Below are positions 11,375-21,863 of a DNA stretch of 33,751 bases, piece by piece (the stretch's first letter is position 1; every line of letters starts with the position of its first letter). Made by a program: the position numbers and the translations under genes. Location of the stretch: assembly GCA_002719695.1 (NCBI GenBank), contig PBEQ01000041.1, forward strand, positions 1 through 33,751. The letters run 5' to 3'. Below the pieces are notes generated by a model. That model was not told where the DNA came from, searched no databases, and saw only the letters and a list, made by a program, of their open reading frames with translations. The stretch comes from a bacterium (GTDB lineage: Bacteria; Margulisbacteria; Marinamargulisbacteria; GCA-2716485; GCA-002719695).

Positions 11375-11539
11375 ATGTTAAAAAAAATAATAATCACATT
11401 TACACTACTATCAATCTGTTTATGTTGTCTATCCTGTGATGCATTAACCAATGAAGATGATGAAACATCACAACAATACAACATTGAAGAAGAAATCAAG
11501 CATTTAAAAAAAGTTACAAGATTAAAGACACACCAATGA
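11375..11539 (+). CDS. Small putative lipoprotein (54 aa), not in the ORF track
   Basis: MLKKIIITFTLLSICLCCLSCDALTNEDDETSQQYNIEEEIKHLKKVTRLKTHQ*. Lipobox-like LCCLSC|D; stop TGA overlaps the next ATG (ATGA). Confidence 0.6.
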   Translation: MLKKIIITFTLLSICLCCLSCDALTNEDDETSQQYNIEEEIKHLKKVTRLKTHQ

Positions 11540-12375
11540 AACCTATTTTACTAATAATTATAATAATAGTTTCAATAAACAATCAACATATTGCCGGCGA
11601 AAAACACATGATAATATCCTTATTAAAAGGATACTACTATGACATATCTGATGCTAACACAACTGAAAACGAAACCATCATATATGATGGATTCAATTCA
11701 GAAACAACCTACGAAGATATTACTGTATACAACACCATCTACGAATGTGATGCTCATGATCCATTACTATCTGAGGAAGACATCAACAACAACAACATTA
11801 ACTGTATCCAAATTGATGGACAGGCAAAATCTCTAAAAAGCCCCTCGGGTAATAACTTATATCTAGAGCTAAATATACCAAATGAAGAAAAAGTGATTTT
11901 AACAAACGAGGCATATGAGGCAAATGGAAAAAGGTTTTCCGTTCATGACTACCTAAATTTAGAAGAGGACGACATAAAAGATCTAGCAAAAAAAGAAGCA
12001 AACGATAATAACATCCCAACCTATAATTTTGAAATAGAATTTAAATACATAAACTTTAATTCAGATAATACAAAAAACTACGAATTTAAACTATTTTGGA
12101 CCTGGACCAAAATAATTAATGATAACAATGAAACATACCGCATACCATTTAAACTAATAATAGAAGGCGAAAATAATCTTAAGTATGAATACTCAGGAAT
12201 ATTTAATATGTCAAAACAACCAGAAAACCCCGAAGATTTTATCGTCTCATCCGATATCGAACTAAATTCTAATAATGAAACCGCAACATTCACATGGGAC
12301 ATGATGAATTCATGTATATTAATTACTAGGCATTTAGACAACAGCACTATAATTGATGGATGCTCATCAAACTAA
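11536..12375 (+). CDS. Hypothetical secreted acidic, Asn-rich protein
   Basis: Hydrophobic N-terminus MKPILLIIIIIVSINNQ, then a long D/E/N-rich region. No family recognised. Confidence 0.6.
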   Translation: MKPILLIIIIIVSINNQHIAGEKHMIISLLKGYYYDISDANTTENETIIYDGFNSETTYEDITVYNTIYECDAHDPLLSEEDINNNNINCIQIDGQAKSLKSPSGNNLYLELNIPNEEKVILTNEAYEANGKRFSVHDYLNLEEDDIKDLAKKEANDNNIPTYNFEIEFKYINFNSDNTKNYEFKLFWTWTKIINDNNETYRIPFKLIIEGENNLKYEYSGIFNMSKQPENPEDFIVSSDIELNSNNETATFTWDMMNSCILITRHLDNSTIIDGCSSN

Positions 12376-12420
12376 CATTACAGTTAAATAGCTTTAAAAA
12401 TTAGTAACCATTTACTCAGA

Positions 12421-12801
12421 TTAACCAGCTCGATAATAGCGAAACGCAGCTACACCCAATAATCCCCACATAATCATTAAAATCATCCCTCCAACAGGTG
12501 TCACAAACGTTAACGCTTTAACCCCTGTTAACACATACACGTAAAGACTGCCAGAAAACAACAATACGCCTACAATAGCACTTTTAAAAACATAACCAGG
12601 AATAACAAAACCCGCTTTAGATTGACTATTAAATAAACTTAACACAAGTAAAAACAAACTATAAAACTGATGATAATCAATCGCTACTTGCAAGGTTTTA
12701 TACAAGGATTCTGTTAACGTTTGAGCTGCAATATGAGCTCCAAACGCCCCAATAAGAACACTTAAAAACCCCAACACCGCACTAATTACAATATAGTTCA
12801 T
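12421..12801 (-). CDS. DUF423 family membrane protein
   Basis: LIGAFGAHIAAQTLT, YHQFYSLFLL, FSGSLYVYVLTG, TPVGGMILMIMWGLLGVAAF. Confidence 0.85.
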   Translation of the reverse strand: MNYIVISAVLGFLSVLIGAFGAHIAAQTLTESLYKTLQVAIDYHQFYSLFLLVLSLFNSQSKAGFVIPGYVFKSAIVGVLLFSGSLYVYVLTGVKALTFVTPVGGMILMIMWGLLGVAAFRYYRAG

Positions 12802-12909: not shown

Positions 12910-13689
12910 ATGAGCCAAACAAAAATTGCTGTAAAGACATTTCCTGACTTAGTTACTAAACATAAAGACTTACCTATTGATTACTTCGAAATAGCAATTA
13001 GACCAACTGTTTTCGGAAAACAAACGTCTCTTGAGTCACAACTAACAAGCTTTAAAGACATTAAAAATAAAGTTATTGGTATTCACGGGGCTATCTATCG
13101 CGAAGGGGTCAACCTTTTAGATCCTAAATCAGAAAGCACAAACCAAAAAGCATTTAATTATGTAAAAAAAGCCCAAGATTATTTTCCAAACTGTCAGTAT
13201 GCCTTATTTCATCCTGGCCATATCATTCCTAATTCAGCATGCTCATTTGAAACATTATTTTCTTTTTTAAAAAATAATTTTCTTGATAAATTAGTTATTG
13301 AATTTGAGCCATTCGTTGCCTACGATCAACGATTTGTGTTCCCCATTCATAACAGTCACGATTGGGCTACCTTTCAAGAAAAAATTCAAAAGCCAATTGT
13401 TCTTGATACAGCACATTGTTTTATTACCGCACAAGCTCTTGGATATGACTTTTATTCCTATTTCGAAAAATTAACAACACTTTTATCTCCCAAAATTATC
13501 CACTTAAGCAATACAGATTTATCAGATGGTGGTCTCAATGATAAACATCTACACCTTAGTGAAGGCGTTATCGATTTTTCAAGAATCGCTCATTTATTAG
13601 AAAATAAAATTTTAGTAATTGAGGTAAATAACATCACTAATCATGATATTGAGCATGTACATACAATTTTAGAAAAGGTATCTGTATAA
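12910..13689 (+). CDS. Xylose isomerase-like TIM-barrel (sugar phosphate isomerase/epimerase-type) protein
   Basis: IHGAIYREG, ALFHPGH, LVIEFEP, IVLDTAHCFITAQALGYD, IIHLSNTD, LHLSEGVIDF. Confidence 0.65.
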   Translation: MSQTKIAVKTFPDLVTKHKDLPIDYFEIAIRPTVFGKQTSLESQLTSFKDIKNKVIGIHGAIYREGVNLLDPKSESTNQKAFNYVKKAQDYFPNCQYALFHPGHIIPNSACSFETLFSFLKNNFLDKLVIEFEPFVAYDQRFVFPIHNSHDWATFQEKIQKPIVLDTAHCFITAQALGYDFYSYFEKLTTLLSPKIIHLSNTDLSDGGLNDKHLHLSEGVIDFSRIAHLLENKILVIEVNNITNHDIEHVHTILEKVSV

Positions 13690-15072
13690 ATGACACATTC
13701 ATGGCAAAACTGGGCAACCTTATCAGAGTGCAAACCTCAATCGTTATATTTTCCAAAATCAATAACCGAACTTAAGCAAATCTTAGTTGAAGCTAGTATT
13801 AATAAAGAAAACATAAAAGTTGTTGGTCATGGAAATTCATATAATACAAACTTTCACACGAAAAGGTCCTTATTATCTCTTAAAGAATTTAACACGATTC
13901 TTGAAACAGACATTAACAATCAAACCGTAACATTTGAATCAGGATTATCAATTCCAGATTTAGTTAACCATTGCAATGATAAAAACATAGCTCTTTCAAA
14001 TCTTGGGACAAATATGTTTGATAATGTAGCAGGTGCTTGTGCAACAGGCCATCATGGTAGCGGGATAAATTTTGGAATATTAAGCTCATTTATTGAGTCC
14101 TTTGACCTTTTATTAGGATCCGGAAAAGTATTAACAGTTCACAACGGAGACTGGCTTTACGATGCATTAGGTGTTCATCTAGGTGCTTTTGGGATTATTA
14201 CAAAAATGACTATCAAAACCGAACCCCGATTTAAACTCAAACAAACTGTTTTTCCTATATCATTACAAGCGTTTAATGATAGTATGAAAACTATTTTAGC
14301 TGCCAATGATCATGTAAAACTTATTTGGGCTCCTCATACTCAAGATTATCAATGCTGGATTGCAAATAGAACTAATGAACCTAATGACAGCCCATTTATA
14401 CATTGGAAAAACAAGACTATTAATGGTCTCCTAATTAACAATATACTCCATGGTCTTTTACTATATACAACAAAAATAAAACCAAGCTTGGTTCGGCCTA
14501 TTAATAAATGGCTTAGTAATTATTTTTTAAAAGGAAAAACACAATGTATTGGTTGGTCTGATCAAATTTTTTATCTCCCCCACCTTCTTAAACAAGACGC
14601 TGTTGAATATGCCATACCTATTAAACATACAACCTCTTTTTTACAAGACTTGCATAGTTTAATCGAATCACATTCATTTAATGTTCAGTTTCCAATTGAA
14701 GTTCGGTTTGTAAAAAAAGATAATTTTTGGTTAAGCCCAGCTTATCAAAGTGATATGTGCTACATTGGCACAAAATCTCATCTACTCCCATTTATGCCAA
14801 AAACATACTTAGCTTATTTTAAGGCAGTTAGTCATCTGGTAGAAACATACAAAGGTCGTTTTCACTGGGGAAAACAAAACTATAGTTCTCCAAAATATCT
14901 TGAATCGGTTTACCCAAAATGGAAAGATTTTTGGATTTTACAAAACATTTTAGATCCCAATGGCTTATTTATGAATGATTGGCTTACTTCTTTTGCCCAT
15001 ACCCCATCAAAAACCGATATTGAATCATTCAAAAAAGTATTTTTTGATCATGAATTACAACCAACTTCTTAA
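13690..15072 (+). CDS. FAD-binding aldonolactone/alditol oxidase-family protein
   Basis: VVGHGNSYN FAD motif, ATGHHGSGINFGILSSFIESFDLLLGSGKVL, GVHLGAFGIITKMTI, IEVRFV (ExR) and C-terminal FHWGKQ. Confidence 0.85.
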   Translation: MTHSWQNWATLSECKPQSLYFPKSITELKQILVEASINKENIKVVGHGNSYNTNFHTKRSLLSLKEFNTILETDINNQTVTFESGLSIPDLVNHCNDKNIALSNLGTNMFDNVAGACATGHHGSGINFGILSSFIESFDLLLGSGKVLTVHNGDWLYDALGVHLGAFGIITKMTIKTEPRFKLKQTVFPISLQAFNDSMKTILAANDHVKLIWAPHTQDYQCWIANRTNEPNDSPFIHWKNKTINGLLINNILHGLLLYTTKIKPSLVRPINKWLSNYFLKGKTQCIGWSDQIFYLPHLLKQDAVEYAIPIKHTTSFLQDLHSLIESHSFNVQFPIEVRFVKKDNFWLSPAYQSDMCYIGTKSHLLPFMPKTYLAYFKAVSHLVETYKGRFHWGKQNYSSPKYLESVYPKWKDFWILQNILDPNGLFMNDWLTSFAHTPSKTDIESFKKVFFDHELQPTS

Positions 15073-15940
15073 TCATGACTTAACTATCTCAGAATTTGGA
15101 TTTGGAGCATCTCCCTTTGGTAATATATATACCCAAAAATTACATGATGATGACGTCCAGTTATGTGTTGAGACAGCATTAGAAAACGGTATCAATTATT
15201 TTGATGTTGCACCCTATTATGGCAAAGGGCTAGCTGAAAAACGGCTTGCAAAAGCACTAGGAAAAAACTCTCAAAAAATTATTTTATCAACAAAGGTCGG
15301 CCGCTATGATCATAATGAATTCAATTTTTCCGCTGAATCCATTAGTCAATCCATTCATCATAGCCTATCATTATTTTCACGAGATCATTTAGATATAGTC
15401 TTTTGTCATGACATTGAATTTGTTGATTCAGATATTATATTAAATTCGGCACTACCAACATTAGAAAAATTAAAACAACAAGGAAAAATTAGAGCAATTG
15501 GAATCTCAGGTTACCCATTACCCCTACTCTATTCTATTGCAAAACAGTTTCCACTAGATATCATTTTAAGTTACTCCCAATTAACGCTTATCAACCAAAA
15601 TCTAAAATCATACAGTCAAAAATTTCATGATTTAAACGTTAATGTAATTAATGCATCACCATTTGATATGGGTCTATTAACACAAGGTAACTGCCCCGCA
15701 TGGCATCCAGCCTCCCAAAAATTAAAAAATAAAATAGCTACATTGCTAGAAAAATGTGCCCAAAACGAGATTAAAATTGAAAAATCAGCATTTCAATATA
15801 GCTTAAATACTAACAACGCCCAATCCCATTTAACAGGTATCGGATCTCATAAACAACTGCAGCACTGCCTGCAGTGGTATTATGAAAAAAAAGACGCTTC
15901 TGCCATTGATACAATCATTAAACTATTTAACGATTTATAA
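15050..15940 (+). CDS. Aldo/keto reductase, L-galactose dehydrogenase-like
   Basis: FGFGASPFGNIY, GINYFDVAPYYGKGLAEKRLAKAL, STKVGRYDHNEFNFSAESISQSI, FCHDIEF, INASPFDMGLLTQGNCPAWHPASQKLK. ATG 15050 preferred over the listed 14975. Confidence 0.85.
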   Translation: MNYNQLLNHDLTISEFGFGASPFGNIYTQKLHDDDVQLCVETALENGINYFDVAPYYGKGLAEKRLAKALGKNSQKIILSTKVGRYDHNEFNFSAESISQSIHHSLSLFSRDHLDIVFCHDIEFVDSDIILNSALPTLEKLKQQGKIRAIGISGYPLPLLYSIAKQFPLDIILSYSQLTLINQNLKSYSQKFHDLNVNVINASPFDMGLLTQGNCPAWHPASQKLKNKIATLLEKCAQNEIKIEKSAFQYSLNTNNAQSHLTGIGSHKQLQHCLQWYYEKKDASAIDTIIKLFNDL

Positions 15941-16006: not shown

Positions 16007-17977
16007 ATGTCTGTAGAATATAAAGCTGATCATATTAAGGTTTTAGAAGGGCTAGAAGCTGTAAGAAAGCGCCCCGGTATGTATATTGGGACAACAGGGA
16101 AAGCTGGTTTAAACCATCTTATTTTTGAGGTTGTTGATAACTCAATAGATGAAGCTATGGCAGGTCATTGTACAGATGTTACTGTTACGATTGATAAAGA
16201 TAACATTGTTACCGTCGAAGATAATGGAAGAGGTATTCCCATTGATGAACATAAAGACAAAAAGTTACCAGCTGTTGAGGTTGTTTTAACAACGCTACAT
16301 GCTGGAGGAAAATTTGAAGGAGAAGGGTACAAGGTCTCCGGTGGATTGCATGGTGTTGGGGTTTCTGTTGTTAATGCTTTAGCAGAATGGTTAGAAGTAG
16401 AAGTATGTAGAGACAACAAAACATACACAAACCGATACCAAAGGGGAATTCCTGATAACTTAGTTGGTACATTTTCTGATAATGCAAATAATAACCGAGG
16501 AACTGTCATTAGATTTAAACCTGATGACACTATATTTGATGAAGTTGAATTTACAACAGAAGTAATAGATCACCGATTAAGAGAATTAGCATTTTTGAAT
16601 CGAGGGGTACGTATATTTTTTAATGATTTAAGACCAGAAGAACCTATCCATGAAGAGTATATGTTTGAAGGTGGTATCGAATCTTATGTAGCTATGTTAA
16701 ATGAATCTAAAGAAATTTTATTTGATAACGTTATTTACATGAAAAAAAATCGTAACAACTATGAGGTAGAAGTAGCATTGCAATACGTAAATGATTATTA
16801 CGATGAACATGTTGTAACATTTGCAAACAATATTAGAACGAAAGAAGGCGGTACCCATCTAAGCGGATTTAGAACAGCTTTAACACGAGGTATCAATAAT
16901 TTTGCGAAAAAATTTGATTTAGTTAAAGGTGCAAAATCAAACTTTACTGGTAATGATTTAAAAGAAGGCTTAACGGCTGTAATATCAGTTAAATTAGCTA
17001 ATCCACAATTTGAAGGCCAAACAAAAACAAAATTAGGTAATTCCGAAGTAAAAGGAATAGTAGATTCTCTTGTTGATGAAGGATTATCTGATTATATAGA
17101 AAGAAATCCTAAAGTTGGTAAGTTAATTGTCAACAAAGCACTTGTTGCGCAGAGGGTTCGAGAAGCTGCCCGAAAAGCCCAAGATTTAGTTCGAAGAAAA
17201 TCTAGCTTAGAAAGCACAACGTTGCCTGGAAAATTAGCAGACTGTTCAAATAGAAATGCAGCTGACTGTGAAATATATATTGTTGAGGGTGATTCTGCCG
17301 GTGGTTCTGCAAAACAAGGACGAGACCGTAACTTTCAAGCAATTTTACCATTAAGAGGTAAAGTACTTAATGTTGAAAAAGCACGTCTTGATAAAATTTT
17401 AGCAAATGAAGAGATTAGAACACTGATAACAGCTATTGGACCATCAGCAGTTTCAGGGTTATCTGAAACTGAAGCAAAGATTAATGAAGATGAGGCTGAA
17501 GATAATGATGATCCATCACACATTTTAAAAAAATTACGATATCACAAAATAGTTATTATGACAGATGCGGATGTTGATGGAGCTCATATTAGAACGCTAT
17601 TACTAACGTTTTTCTTTAGATATGCAAGAGATATTATTCGTGTAGGCGGATTATATATTGCTCAACCACCCTTATATTTAGTAAAAAAAGGAACTGCAAA
17701 ACATTACGTTTATAATGACGAGCAACTTGAGACAAAATTAGAAGAATTAGGTAGAAAAAACGTAGGAATTCAACGATATAAAGGATTAGGAGAAATGAAT
17801 CCTGATCAATTATGGGAAACAACAATGGATCCAGATAAACGTACAATGCTTCGAGTTGATATGGAAGATGCTGAATTAGCAGATGAAATTTTCTCCATTT
17901 TAATGGGTAGCAATGTTGACCCAAGAAAACTTTTTATTGAAAAATACGCGAAAGATGTTCGCTGGATTGATGTTTAA
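16007..17977 (+). CDS. gyrB: DNA gyrase subunit B
   Basis: VRKRPGMYIGTTG, VVDNSIDEAMAG, IVEGDSAGGSAKQGRDR, IMTDADVDGAHIRTLLLTFFFR, QRYKGLGEMNPDQLWETTMDP. Confidence 0.99.
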   Translation: MSVEYKADHIKVLEGLEAVRKRPGMYIGTTGKAGLNHLIFEVVDNSIDEAMAGHCTDVTVTIDKDNIVTVEDNGRGIPIDEHKDKKLPAVEVVLTTLHAGGKFEGEGYKVSGGLHGVGVSVVNALAEWLEVEVCRDNKTYTNRYQRGIPDNLVGTFSDNANNNRGTVIRFKPDDTIFDEVEFTTEVIDHRLRELAFLNRGVRIFFNDLRPEEPIHEEYMFEGGIESYVAMLNESKEILFDNVIYMKKNRNNYEVEVALQYVNDYYDEHVVTFANNIRTKEGGTHLSGFRTALTRGINNFAKKFDLVKGAKSNFTGNDLKEGLTAVISVKLANPQFEGQTKTKLGNSEVKGIVDSLVDEGLSDYIERNPKVGKLIVNKALVAQRVREAARKAQDLVRRKSSLESTTLPGKLADCSNRNAADCEIYIVEGDSAGGSAKQGRDRNFQAILPLRGKVLNVEKARLDKILANEEIRTLITAIGPSAVSGLSETEAKINEDEAEDNDDPSHILKKLRYHKIVIMTDADVDGAHIRTLLLTFFFRYARDIIRVGGLYIAQPPLYLVKKGTAKHYVYNDEQLETKLEELGRKNVGIQRYKGLGEMNPDQLWETTMDPDKRTMLRVDMEDAELADEIFSILMGSNVDPRKLFIEKYAKDVRWIDV

Positions 17978-17986
17978 GGAGATATA

Positions 17987-20497
17987 ATGACAGACGATCA
18001 AAACTTGCTGTTTGATGGAGCCGAACTAAAGCCTCAAGAAAAGGGTATTGGACTCATAGATATTAATGAAGAAATGAAGCAATCATATCTAGAATATGCA
18101 ATGTCTGTTATTGTCGGACGGGCCTTACCTGATGTTAGAGATGGATTAAAACCAGTTCACAGACGTATTTTATATTCTATGCACGATGCTGGATTTACAG
18201 CAACACGAGCCTACAAAAAATCAGCACGTATTGTCGGAGATGTTTTAGGACGTTATCACCCGCATGGAGATACAGCTGTATACGATTCTTTAGTTAGAAT
18301 GGCTCAAGATTTCTCGTTACGTTATCCCTTAATTGATGGACAAGGAAATTACGGCTCAATTGATGGTGATAATGCAGCTGCCATGAGATACACAGAAGCA
18401 AGAATGTCAAAAATAAGCATGACATTATTAGAAGATATAGATAAAGAAACGGTTGATTTCAAATCAAACTTTGATGATTCACTTGAAGAACCAAGTGTCT
18501 TACCTGCAAAAATTCCAAACTTACTTTTGAACGGAACATCAGGAATTGCTGTTGGAATGGCAACTAATATTCCTCCGCACAATCTAAATGAGCTTGTTAA
18601 CGGAGTATGTGCTTTAATTGATAATTCAGACATTGATGTTGAAGGATTAATGGAGCATATTAAAGGTCCTGACTTTCCTACAGCAGGTATAATTTGCGGG
18701 AATCAAGGTATAAGACAAGCCTACGAAACAGGAAAAGGAAGCGTTGTTATACGTGCAAAAGTCTCTTTTGAAGAAACTAAAAAAGGTCGTGAGGTAATAG
18801 TTGTTGATGAATTACCTTATCAAGTTAATAAAGCAAATTTAATTGTAAAAATTGCTGAACTAGTGAGTGACAAAAAAATTCCTGGCATTAATGATCTTAG
18901 AGATGAGTCTGATAGAAAAGGAATGCGAATCTACATAGAGTTAAAAAGAGATGCATCTAAAGATGTTGTTCTAAATCAATTATATAAACATACCCAGCTA
19001 CAAACGAGTTTTGGCATAAATATGGTTGCACTCGTTCATGGAATACCTAAATTATTAAACCTAAAATCTGTATTATCTCACTACATCGAACATCGAAAAG
19101 ATGTTATTACCCGAAGAACTACATTTGATTTAAAAAAGGCAAAAGACAGACTTCATATCTTAGAAGGCCTCCGAATTGCATTAGAAAATATTGATGCAGT
19201 TATTGAATTAATTAAAAAATCAGCGGATGCTGCCGTTGCTAAAGAAGGCCTAATATCTACATTCTCATTATCAGAAAAACAGGCTACAGCCATTCTGGAG
19301 ATGAGACTACAGCGATTAACGGGACTTGAAAGAGATAAAATTGAAACAGAATATAAAGAAATTTTAGAAATAATAGCTGATTTAGAAGATATTTTAGCTA
19401 ATGAAAGTAGAATTTATCAAATCATTAAAGATGAGCATCAAGAAATTGTTGAAAAATTTGGAGACGAAAGACGAACATACATTGGTGATCCTGTTCATAT
19501 CATGGCAATTGAAGATTTAATTCCAAATAGAAAAGTTGCTATTTTAATTTCAAAAAATGGCTTCCTAAAACGAATGGGTATTGATCAGTTCAAAAATCAA
19601 AATCGAGGAGGTCGCGGTATCAACTCCATGACAACACGCGATGAAGACTCTATTGAACATCTACTAATTACAAATACACATGACTTTTTACTTTGTTTTA
19701 CATCAAAAGGAAGAATATTTAAAATAAAAGCGCATCAAGTTCCTGAAGCATCAAGACAATCAAAAGGTATATCTATGGCTCATTTTCTTCATTTTGAAGA
19801 TAATGAAGTTTTAACAAGTGTTATAGATGTAAAAGAATTCTCAGAAAATGAATACCTTTTAATGACAACCAAAAATGGAGTTATTAAAAAAACAGCATTA
19901 TCGGCTTTTTCTCATTTCAAAAACAAACCTATCATTGCAATTAATCTAGATAAAGATGACATCTTACAATGGGTTAAAAAAACGGATGGAACAAAAGATA
20001 TTATGCTTGTTACCAAATATGGAATGTTAATTCGTTTCGAGGAATCCCAAGTACGAGCAATGGGAAGAGCATCAAGAGGAATTAGAGGTATCAAAACAAA
20101 AACAGATGACACACTCATATCAATGAATGTGATTAACCATGAAGATGATGATTCCCGGATCCTAATTATTACTCGCTATGGATACGGAAAAAATATTAGA
20201 TTATCAGAATTTCGTTGTCAAAATAGAGGCGGAATTGGTGTAAAAAGCCTTACGTTTAGAAAAAGTATTAAAGATGATCATGTTCAAGATGCAATTATCG
20301 CAAATCGTGACCAAGAGTTTTTAATTGTTACTGAATCAGGAACCTTATGTCGACAAAATGTAGGAAAAATTTCAACACAAAGACGAGAAGCTCAAGGTGT
20401 GCGAATTGTTAAATGTGATGACAAAGATTATGTAATTGCAATAAGTGCCGTTGACATCCAAGATGAAAATGACACTGAAAATAAAATAATTAGATAA
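17987..20497 (+). CDS. gyrA: DNA gyrase subunit A
   Basis: [68 protein letters not shown], plus gyrase C-terminal blades with NRGGRGI. Confidence 0.99.
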
Positions 20498-21223: not shown

Positions 21224-21751
21224 TTATAAATAATCTTTTTCAATTAAATCTAGATACTTTTCTTCTGGACTTTCAAATAACAATCCAGAAATTGCCATAC
21301 CATATATCTGAGATACTACTCCAATCATTGTAGGTTTAGCAGTATCAGAAAACGTATCATTCGCTAATAAATACGTTAACATAAAAGCAGAAATAATATT
21401 ACTCACAGATTGTATCGCTCGAAGACGTTTATACCGCATCCTTAAAATAGGAAGTTGAGTATTAATATTCTCTTCAGAAAGAATCATTAATGCTGAGCGA
21501 TAAATAGGTCGCGCAGTAAACGAATATAATGATATTCCAAACATAAAATAGGTCATTCCTGATGCTGAATTATCTAATACTGAAAACCCTAAATTGGCAG
21601 TAGCATTGATTATTTTAAATGTTTGATTTTGCTTATACGATATGCGGGTTTTTTCTAAGAAAGCATCGGTTCTTTGTCTAACTCTATCAAAAGGTACGCT
21701 GTCTTGCGAATAAGTAAATGAACAATTTACAAAAATTAGTAAAGTAAAAAT
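21224..21751 (-). CDS. Hypothetical secreted/membrane protein; the listed ORF start at 21862 runs through tRNA-Tyr
   Basis: After the tRNA the frame reads (I)FTLLIFVNCSFTYS|QDSVPFDRVRQ..., a plausible signal peptide. No ATG/GTG/TTG is in frame between the tRNA 3' end and this segment; ATT at 21751 is a possible start. Confidence 0.5.
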   Translation of the reverse strand: MFTLLIFVNCSFTYSQDSVPFDRVRQRTDAFLEKTRISYKQNQTFKIINATANLGFSVLDNSASGMTYFMFGISLYSFTARPIYRSALMILSEENINTQLPILRMRYKRLRAIQSVSNIISAFMLTYLLANDTFSDTAKPTMIGVVSQIYGMAISGLLFESPEEKYLDLIEKDYL

Positions 21752-21752
21752 C

Positions 21753-21839
21753 TGGTGGAGGGAGCTGGATTTGAACCAACGTAGAGCTAAGCTCGGCAGA
21801 TTTACAGTCTGCTGCGATTGACCACTCCGCCATCCCTCC
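21753..21839 (-). tRNA. tRNA-Tyr (GTA anticodon), CCA encoded
   Basis: Reverse complement GGAGGGATGGCGGAGTGGTCAATCGCAGCAGACTGTAAATCTGCCGAGCTTAGCTCTACGTTGGTTCAAATCCAGCTCCCTCCACCA. Acceptor stem GGAGGGA/TCCCTCC, GTA in the anticodon loop, long variable arm, GTTCAAATC T loop. Confidence 0.95.
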
Positions 21840-21863
21840 AAAGTCATTTGATAAAATAGCATA

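Follow-up and report, generated by a model that had tools for sequence, protein, structure and literature searches.

Locus organization

The window, meaning the whole 33,751-nt stretch of DNA analysed here, comes from an incomplete 1.33-Mb genome and carries three co-oriented open reading frames at 12910–15940, all of which were real (Table 1). A sequence-only reading of this DNA had described three adjacent genes, the first two contiguous and the last two overlapping. That layout was confirmed, with position 13689 of the TIM-barrel gene followed directly by 13690 of the flavoprotein gene, and the overlap was corrected to 23 bp. Homologues of the reductase in three genomes of the same family (G001, G002 and G003) and in plants begin at a Met equivalent to that at 15050, so this is the true start, which sets the length of the overlap; the start at 14975 is over-extended. 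Downstream of the trio are gyrB at 16007 and gyrA at 17987, while a DUF423 protein is encoded upstream on the opposite strand. No sugar transporter, dehydratase or aldolase gene adjoins the flavoprotein–reductase pair in the window. Scanning for promoters and terminators gave counts no higher than in shuffled sequences (21 versus 20.1; 3 versus 2.1), so the operon limits were placed by gene spacing alone.

Table 1 Genes and codons of the locus
Feature	Position	Strand	Basis
TIM-barrel metalloprotein gene, 259 aa, endonuclease IV/YcjR/MNIO superfamily	12910..13689	+	PF01261 (5e-7), ligands, profile, fold
Aldonolactone oxidoreductase-type flavoprotein gene, 460 aa, predicted sugar-lactone C2 oxidase	13690..15072	+	PF04030/PF01565, TIGR01678, tree, Foldseek
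Asn49 codon at FAD-linking His position (GHGNS for GxGHS)	13834..13836	+	Alignment of 45 homologues
Gly106 codon, oxygen gatekeeper (GalDH Ala113), oxidase-type	14005..14007	+	Alignment; rule from PMC11099136
Lys210 codon (GalDH Arg219 position)	14317..14319	+	Alignment
Gln302 codon (GalDH Gln344, gating loop)	14593..14595	+	Alignment
Glu337 and Arg339 codons (GalDH Glu386, Arg388)	14698..14706	+	Alignment
Gly360 codon (GalDH Gly413; Asn in GULO), galactono-type specificity position	14767..14769	+	Alignment; PMC11099136
Lys395 codon in HWGK (GalDH Lys456)	14872..14874	+	Alignment
Flavoprotein/reductase gene overlap, 23 bp	15050..15072	+	Equal length in G001 and G002
L-galactose/L-fucose 1-dehydrogenase-type aldo/keto reductase gene, 296 aa	15050..15940	+	PDB ranking, tree, residues

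Elsewhere in the window, a patch of ~400 bp (about 12300–12720) is about 92–100% identical in DNA to G002, with flanking genes at 70–82%, a pattern read as recent recombination or transfer between species. It spans most of the DUF423 gene and the end of a gene at 11536–12375, which encodes a fast-evolving predicted secreted protein with no Pfam match and 47% amino acid identity to its G002 counterpart; because of the recombined patch, the C-terminal tails of the two proteins are nearly identical. On the minus strand, the open reading frame called at 21224–21862 starts inside or next to a tRNA-Tyr gene (21753–21839). Its N-terminus is tRNA read-through, and the true start therefore lies downstream.

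The TIM-barrel protein

The first product had been described as a xylose-isomerase-like TIM barrel, an assignment that we rejected: the match to PF01261 is weak (30 bits) and just under the 31.1 cut-off, and profile, metal ligands and fold point to endonuclease IV and related metalloenzymes. The sequence profile matched endonuclease IV best in the PDB, and nine putative metal ligands (H59, H101, E131, D166, H169, H198, D211, H213 and E238) correspond to those of the endonuclease IV trinuclear site, with 9/9 invariant in an eight-row alignment. An AF2 model (pLDDT 86) gave endonuclease IV, YcjR and MbnB as top Foldseek matches, and its neighbours include ketose 3-epimerases. The protein also scored under the cut-off of the endonuclease IV model TIGR00587 (15.6 of 129.65 bits), and a comparison with plasmids returned no match. 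A role as a sugar isomerase is possible, without specific support; we take the protein to be an accessory metalloenzyme of one genus and guess that it perhaps supplies or processes the sugar. A wider family of TIM-barrel proteins in the phylum (L036–L042; about 254 aa, mostly with an FGLKLWS-like start) shares 9/9 of the endonuclease-IV-type ligands with the window protein.

The aldo/keto reductase

The reductase (PF00248, 147.9 bits) retains an intact catalytic tetrad in alignments (D52, Y57, K82 and H120), and the segments GFGASPFG, FCHDIEF and CPAWHPASQKLK, which had been associated with plant-type L-galactose dehydrogenase (L-GalDH), do align with the plant enzymes. Its best solved relatives in the PDB are five L-galactose dehydrogenases (E values of 2e-57 to 1e-45), followed by the next family at 2e-31. 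In a maximum-likelihood tree, the protein falls in a 13-row clade (support 99/96) made up of four family members, plant L-GalDHs and enzymes of bacterial L-galactose/L-fucose clusters. This clade is apart from generic aldo/keto reductases, and the possibility that the protein might group with unrelated reductases was not borne out. The NADP-type Arg is absent (GIGS/GIAK where many generic enzymes have GxR); its position was taken from the alignment, following the published rule that a conserved Arg favours NADP use (PMC11066809), so that NAD dependence is predicted here.

The closest bacterial relatives of the reductase (31–37% identity) adjoin amidohydrolase, Zn-alcohol dehydrogenase, FucP or altronate dehydratase genes, and remoter ones adjoin amidohydrolase or L-fuconate dehydratase genes. 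These neighbours therefore point to L-galacto/L-fuco-configured aldoses as substrate. On sequence evidence, the best reading is an L-galactose dehydrogenase-type aldo/keto reductase, predicted to oxidize L-galactose with NAD.

The flavoprotein

The flavoprotein combines FAD-binding 4 and ALO domains (PF01565, 63.9 bits; PF04030, 192.9 bits) and scores below the cut-offs of all NCBIfam lactone-oxidase models, reaching 78.9 of 458.25 bits for TIGR01676 and 241.7 of 396.8 bits for TIGR01678. In its clade, TIGR01678 (sugar 1,4-lactone oxidase) outscores TIGR01679, and the reverse holds in mainstream bacterial homologues; for the window protein itself the two scores are nearly equal (241.7 versus 238.5 bits). 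The tree grouped it with vGalDH and with enzymes from cyanobacteria, Bacteroidota and Campylobacterota (18 rows, 96/93), leaving alditol oxidases outside this clade; vGalDH is on a long branch and its exact place is unsure. The best Foldseek match of the AlphaFold model (pLDDT 82.9, low at residues 115–128) was the L-galactono-1,4-lactone dehydrogenase vGalDH (8qnb, TM 0.82), with alditol oxidases next, and identity to GalDH structures is about 22%.

Active-site residues were mapped in an alignment of 45 homologues, in which the gating loop is aligned with less certainty for the most distant rows, using GalDH positions from PMC11099136. Six positions match GalDH, five of them identical and one with Lys for Arg; GalDH Cys340 corresponds to His298. 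At the Arg219/Gln344/Gly413 positions, the window protein has K210/Q302/G360, whereas most mainstream bacterial homologues have Glu/Phe/Ala and alditol oxidases have Ser/Asp/Ala. Arg339 and Lys395 (the catalytic Arg388/Lys456 pair) and Glu337 (Glu386) also occur in alditol oxidases and are not discriminating. A strict alditol oxidase was rejected on these residue differences and on the position of alditol oxidases outside the clade. Residues, tree, TIGR scores and fold instead group the protein with aldonolactone oxidoreductases, of which putative bacterial members have been listed (PMC9602106), and a lactone oxidase is the best reading of the sequence and model.

The FAD-linking His position is occupied by Asn49 in the window and G002, by His in G003 and by Asp or His in Campylobacterota, and FAD in the window protein is predicted to be bound non-covalently. 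A Gly gatekeeper marks oxidase-type enzymes and Ala, as in GalDH, marks dehydrogenases (PMC11099136); Gly106 therefore predicts an O2-using oxidase, not a plant-type dehydrogenase. The protein lacks the signature of the GalDH dehydrogenase subgroup (Ala gatekeeper and Leu for the FAD-linking His) and carries that of the GULO/ALO oxidase subgroup in part, with the Gly gatekeeper present and the His replaced in the window and G002 but kept in G003. This Asn/Gly combination separates covalent FAD from O2 reactivity, traits that go together in the eukaryotic enzymes. The suggestion that the locus resembles the final steps of ascorbate-type synthesis is partly supported: the reductase groups with L-GalDH-type enzymes and the flavoprotein with aldonolactone oxidoreductases, although in detail the latter is predicted to differ from the plant-type dehydrogenase. 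A gammaproteobacterial homologue (L105, 3983–5374) that groups with cyanobacterial enzymes has Leu at the FAD-link position, a Gly gatekeeper and plant-GalDH-like Cys/Gln gating-loop residues.

Conservation across genomes

The flavoprotein–reductase pair was found in 4/4 genomes of the family, spanning two genera with differing flanks, and this recurrence places the adjacency beyond chance. All three genes are present in the same order beside gyrB in G002, from the window's genus, where the TIM-barrel gene overlaps the pair by 4 bp; G001 has the reductase and a flavoprotein gene truncated at a contig end, also adjoining gyrB. In G003, from the other genus, the flavoprotein and reductase genes overlap by 4 bp in different surroundings, and the TIM-barrel gene was found neither beside the pair nor elsewhere in the genome. 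The conserved unit is therefore the pair, with the TIM-barrel gene as an optional companion, so that of the proposed conserved trio only two members held up throughout the family.

Among 74 genomes of the phylum, full-strength matches to the flavoprotein were confined to the four family genomes and absent from the 70 others searched. A genome scan worked with a four-row flavoprotein alignment as query; an eight-row alignment was too diverse, and the single window protein gave no match. Across 80 flavoprotein loci, the three from the family excepted, no reductase or TIM-barrel gene lay within about 5 kb. When 19 genomes that carry the flavoprotein (from Campylobacterota, cyanobacteria, Bacteroidota and others) were searched in full, no L-GalDH-type reductase was found, and aldo/keto reductase scores there were generic (115 bits at most). 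No relative was found in the viral contigs scanned. Joint transfer of the pair from Campylobacterota was unsupported: although the Campylobacterota flavoproteins are the sister group of the window's, the reductase is absent from their genomes.

A candidate two-step oxidation and its alternatives

We consider it probable that the flavoprotein and reductase genes make up a conserved module that oxidizes a sugar in two steps, leading from an aldose through a lactone to an ascorbate-type enediol. The NAD-dependent reductase would oxidize C1 of an aldose of L-galacto, L-fuco or D-arabino configuration, most likely L-galactose, to the lactone. The flavoprotein would then pass a hydride from C2 of the 1,4-lactone to FAD, and the oxidized lactone would tautomerize to the enediol, giving L-ascorbate from L-galactose, D-erythroascorbate from D-arabinose or 6-deoxyascorbate from L-fucose as possible products. 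The flavin would be reoxidized by O2, the likely acceptor, yielding H2O2. We infer this order of steps from the chemistry of the two enzyme families, and likewise infer the exact sugar and its source, the product, the function and the use of O2; gene families, intact catalytic residues, clade membership and conserved pairing are shown by sequence and structure prediction. Of the original proposal that an aldose is converted to its lactone and then to an enediol, the two-step oxidation thus survives as the best reading, while the exact sugar and ascorbate as product are unsupported. Counted against the module are the sub-cut-off NCBIfam scores, the low identity to GalDH and the His298 substitution. 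The four family genomes, at 74–83% completeness, also yielded neither a class I peroxidase nor a GDP-mannose 4,6-dehydratase (gmd) above the cut-off, so that no ascorbate consumer and no source of a nucleotide sugar was identified. A last point against the module is that L-GalDH-type enzymes have catabolic roles as well.

Those roles bear on a rival, catabolic route, in which the sugar would pass through its lactone to a 2-keto-aldonolactone whose hydrolysis and breakdown would provide carbon, the enediol being a mere intermediate. Every nearest bacterial relative of the reductase that we examined lies in a catabolic cluster, and the published bacterial L-galactose pathways, described in PMC12632266, are catabolic. 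Nonetheless, known clusters have a lactonase-type amidohydrolase and an alcohol dehydrogenase, not a flavoprotein oxidase, and nothing adjoining the pair would supply sugar transport, dehydration or aldol cleavage. The usual catabolic exit was also not seen, because neither an Amidohydro_2 lactonase nor the fucose permease FucP was found in the four family genomes, which are 74–83% complete, so that absences from them are weak and suggestive at most. We regard this route as unlikely. Quite unlikely, in our judgement, is a three-enzyme pathway in which the TIM-barrel protein isomerizes the sugar, like xylose isomerase-like epimerases, ahead of the two oxidations. The contiguity of its gene with the pair in the window, the overlap in G002 and the presence of YcjR and ketose 3-epimerases among its fold neighbours would suit such a scheme, but the G003 pair occurs where no TIM-barrel gene was found, and the best profile matches and nine metal ligands indicate an endonuclease-IV-type trinuclear site. 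It is improbable that the flavoprotein oxidizes alditols or other sugars, mainly making H2O2, and simply neighbours a reductase with an unrelated substrate: it has the E-x-R and HWGK motifs of alditol oxidase and matches alditol oxidases well in Foldseek, but these enzymes lie outside its clade and differ at the three discriminating positions, and the two genes stay together in two genera whose flanks differ.

A more specific version of the two-step module is a tentative proposal that we think somewhat unlikely: the two genes would be a bacterial operon dedicated to the final two steps in making L-ascorbate (or D-erythroascorbate), with a lactone oxidase that binds its FAD non-covalently. If true, the plant pathway would have a bacterial counterpart in an uncultured marine lineage. 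The open-licence literature searched did not describe any bacterium in which L-GalDH and lactone-oxidase genes are linked as a pair. In this little-known family of marine bacteria, close relatives of the last two vitamin C enzymes of plants are encoded next to each other; the locus is a candidate for making vitamin C or a similar compound in bacteria, and the pair gives a two-gene construct with which such synthesis can be tested directly.

Comparison with known systems

Among the closest flavoproteins are the aldonolactone-oxidase homologues of Campylobacterota and Thiomargarita (L059–L066), which have 38–41% identity and equal active-site residues and form a sister clade (10 rows together, 100/100). 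They lack an L-GalDH-type reductase nearby or genome-wide, and some adjoin Gfo/Idh/MocA and AMP-ligase genes. In Campylobacterota loci L059 (6300–9954) and L066 (3118–6724), the homologue occurs with conserved genes for a Gfo/Idh/MocA protein, a 245–249-aa protein and an AMP-ligase; in L059 a DXS-like gene lies next to this cluster, which differs from the window's pair. GalDH, GULO, fungal ALO and trypanosome galactonolactone oxidase have the same two-domain fold as the flavoprotein, which keeps the Arg388/Lys456/Glu386 equivalents, Gln344, the GalDH-type Gly413 and the GULO/ALO-type Gly gatekeeper. Unlike these enzymes, those of the window's genus have Asn at the FAD-linking position, neither His nor Leu, and the window protein has His at Cys340.

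Bacterial L-galactose/L-fucose dehydrogenases (7lh6; Paenibacillus, Acidisarcina, Bacteroides and Catenovulum plasmid copies) share the reductase's clade at 31–37% identity and have as neighbours genes for a lactonase-type protein, a Zn-alcohol dehydrogenase, a permease or a dehydratase, whereas the partner here is a predicted lactone oxidase and none of those genes is adjacent. Plant L-GalDHs (such as spinach 7smi and rice 7ezi) are 36–40% identical to the reductase and have in common with it the motifs, the tetrad, the missing NADP-type Arg and the clade, in which the family's reductases form their own branch, sister to the plant and bacterial catabolic enzymes. Compared with the Smirnoff–Wheeler pathway of plants, the upstream steps were not identified in the window's lineage and the second enzyme is predicted to be an oxidase rather than a cytochrome-c-linked dehydrogenase, but the same two final reactions are plausible for the window pair.
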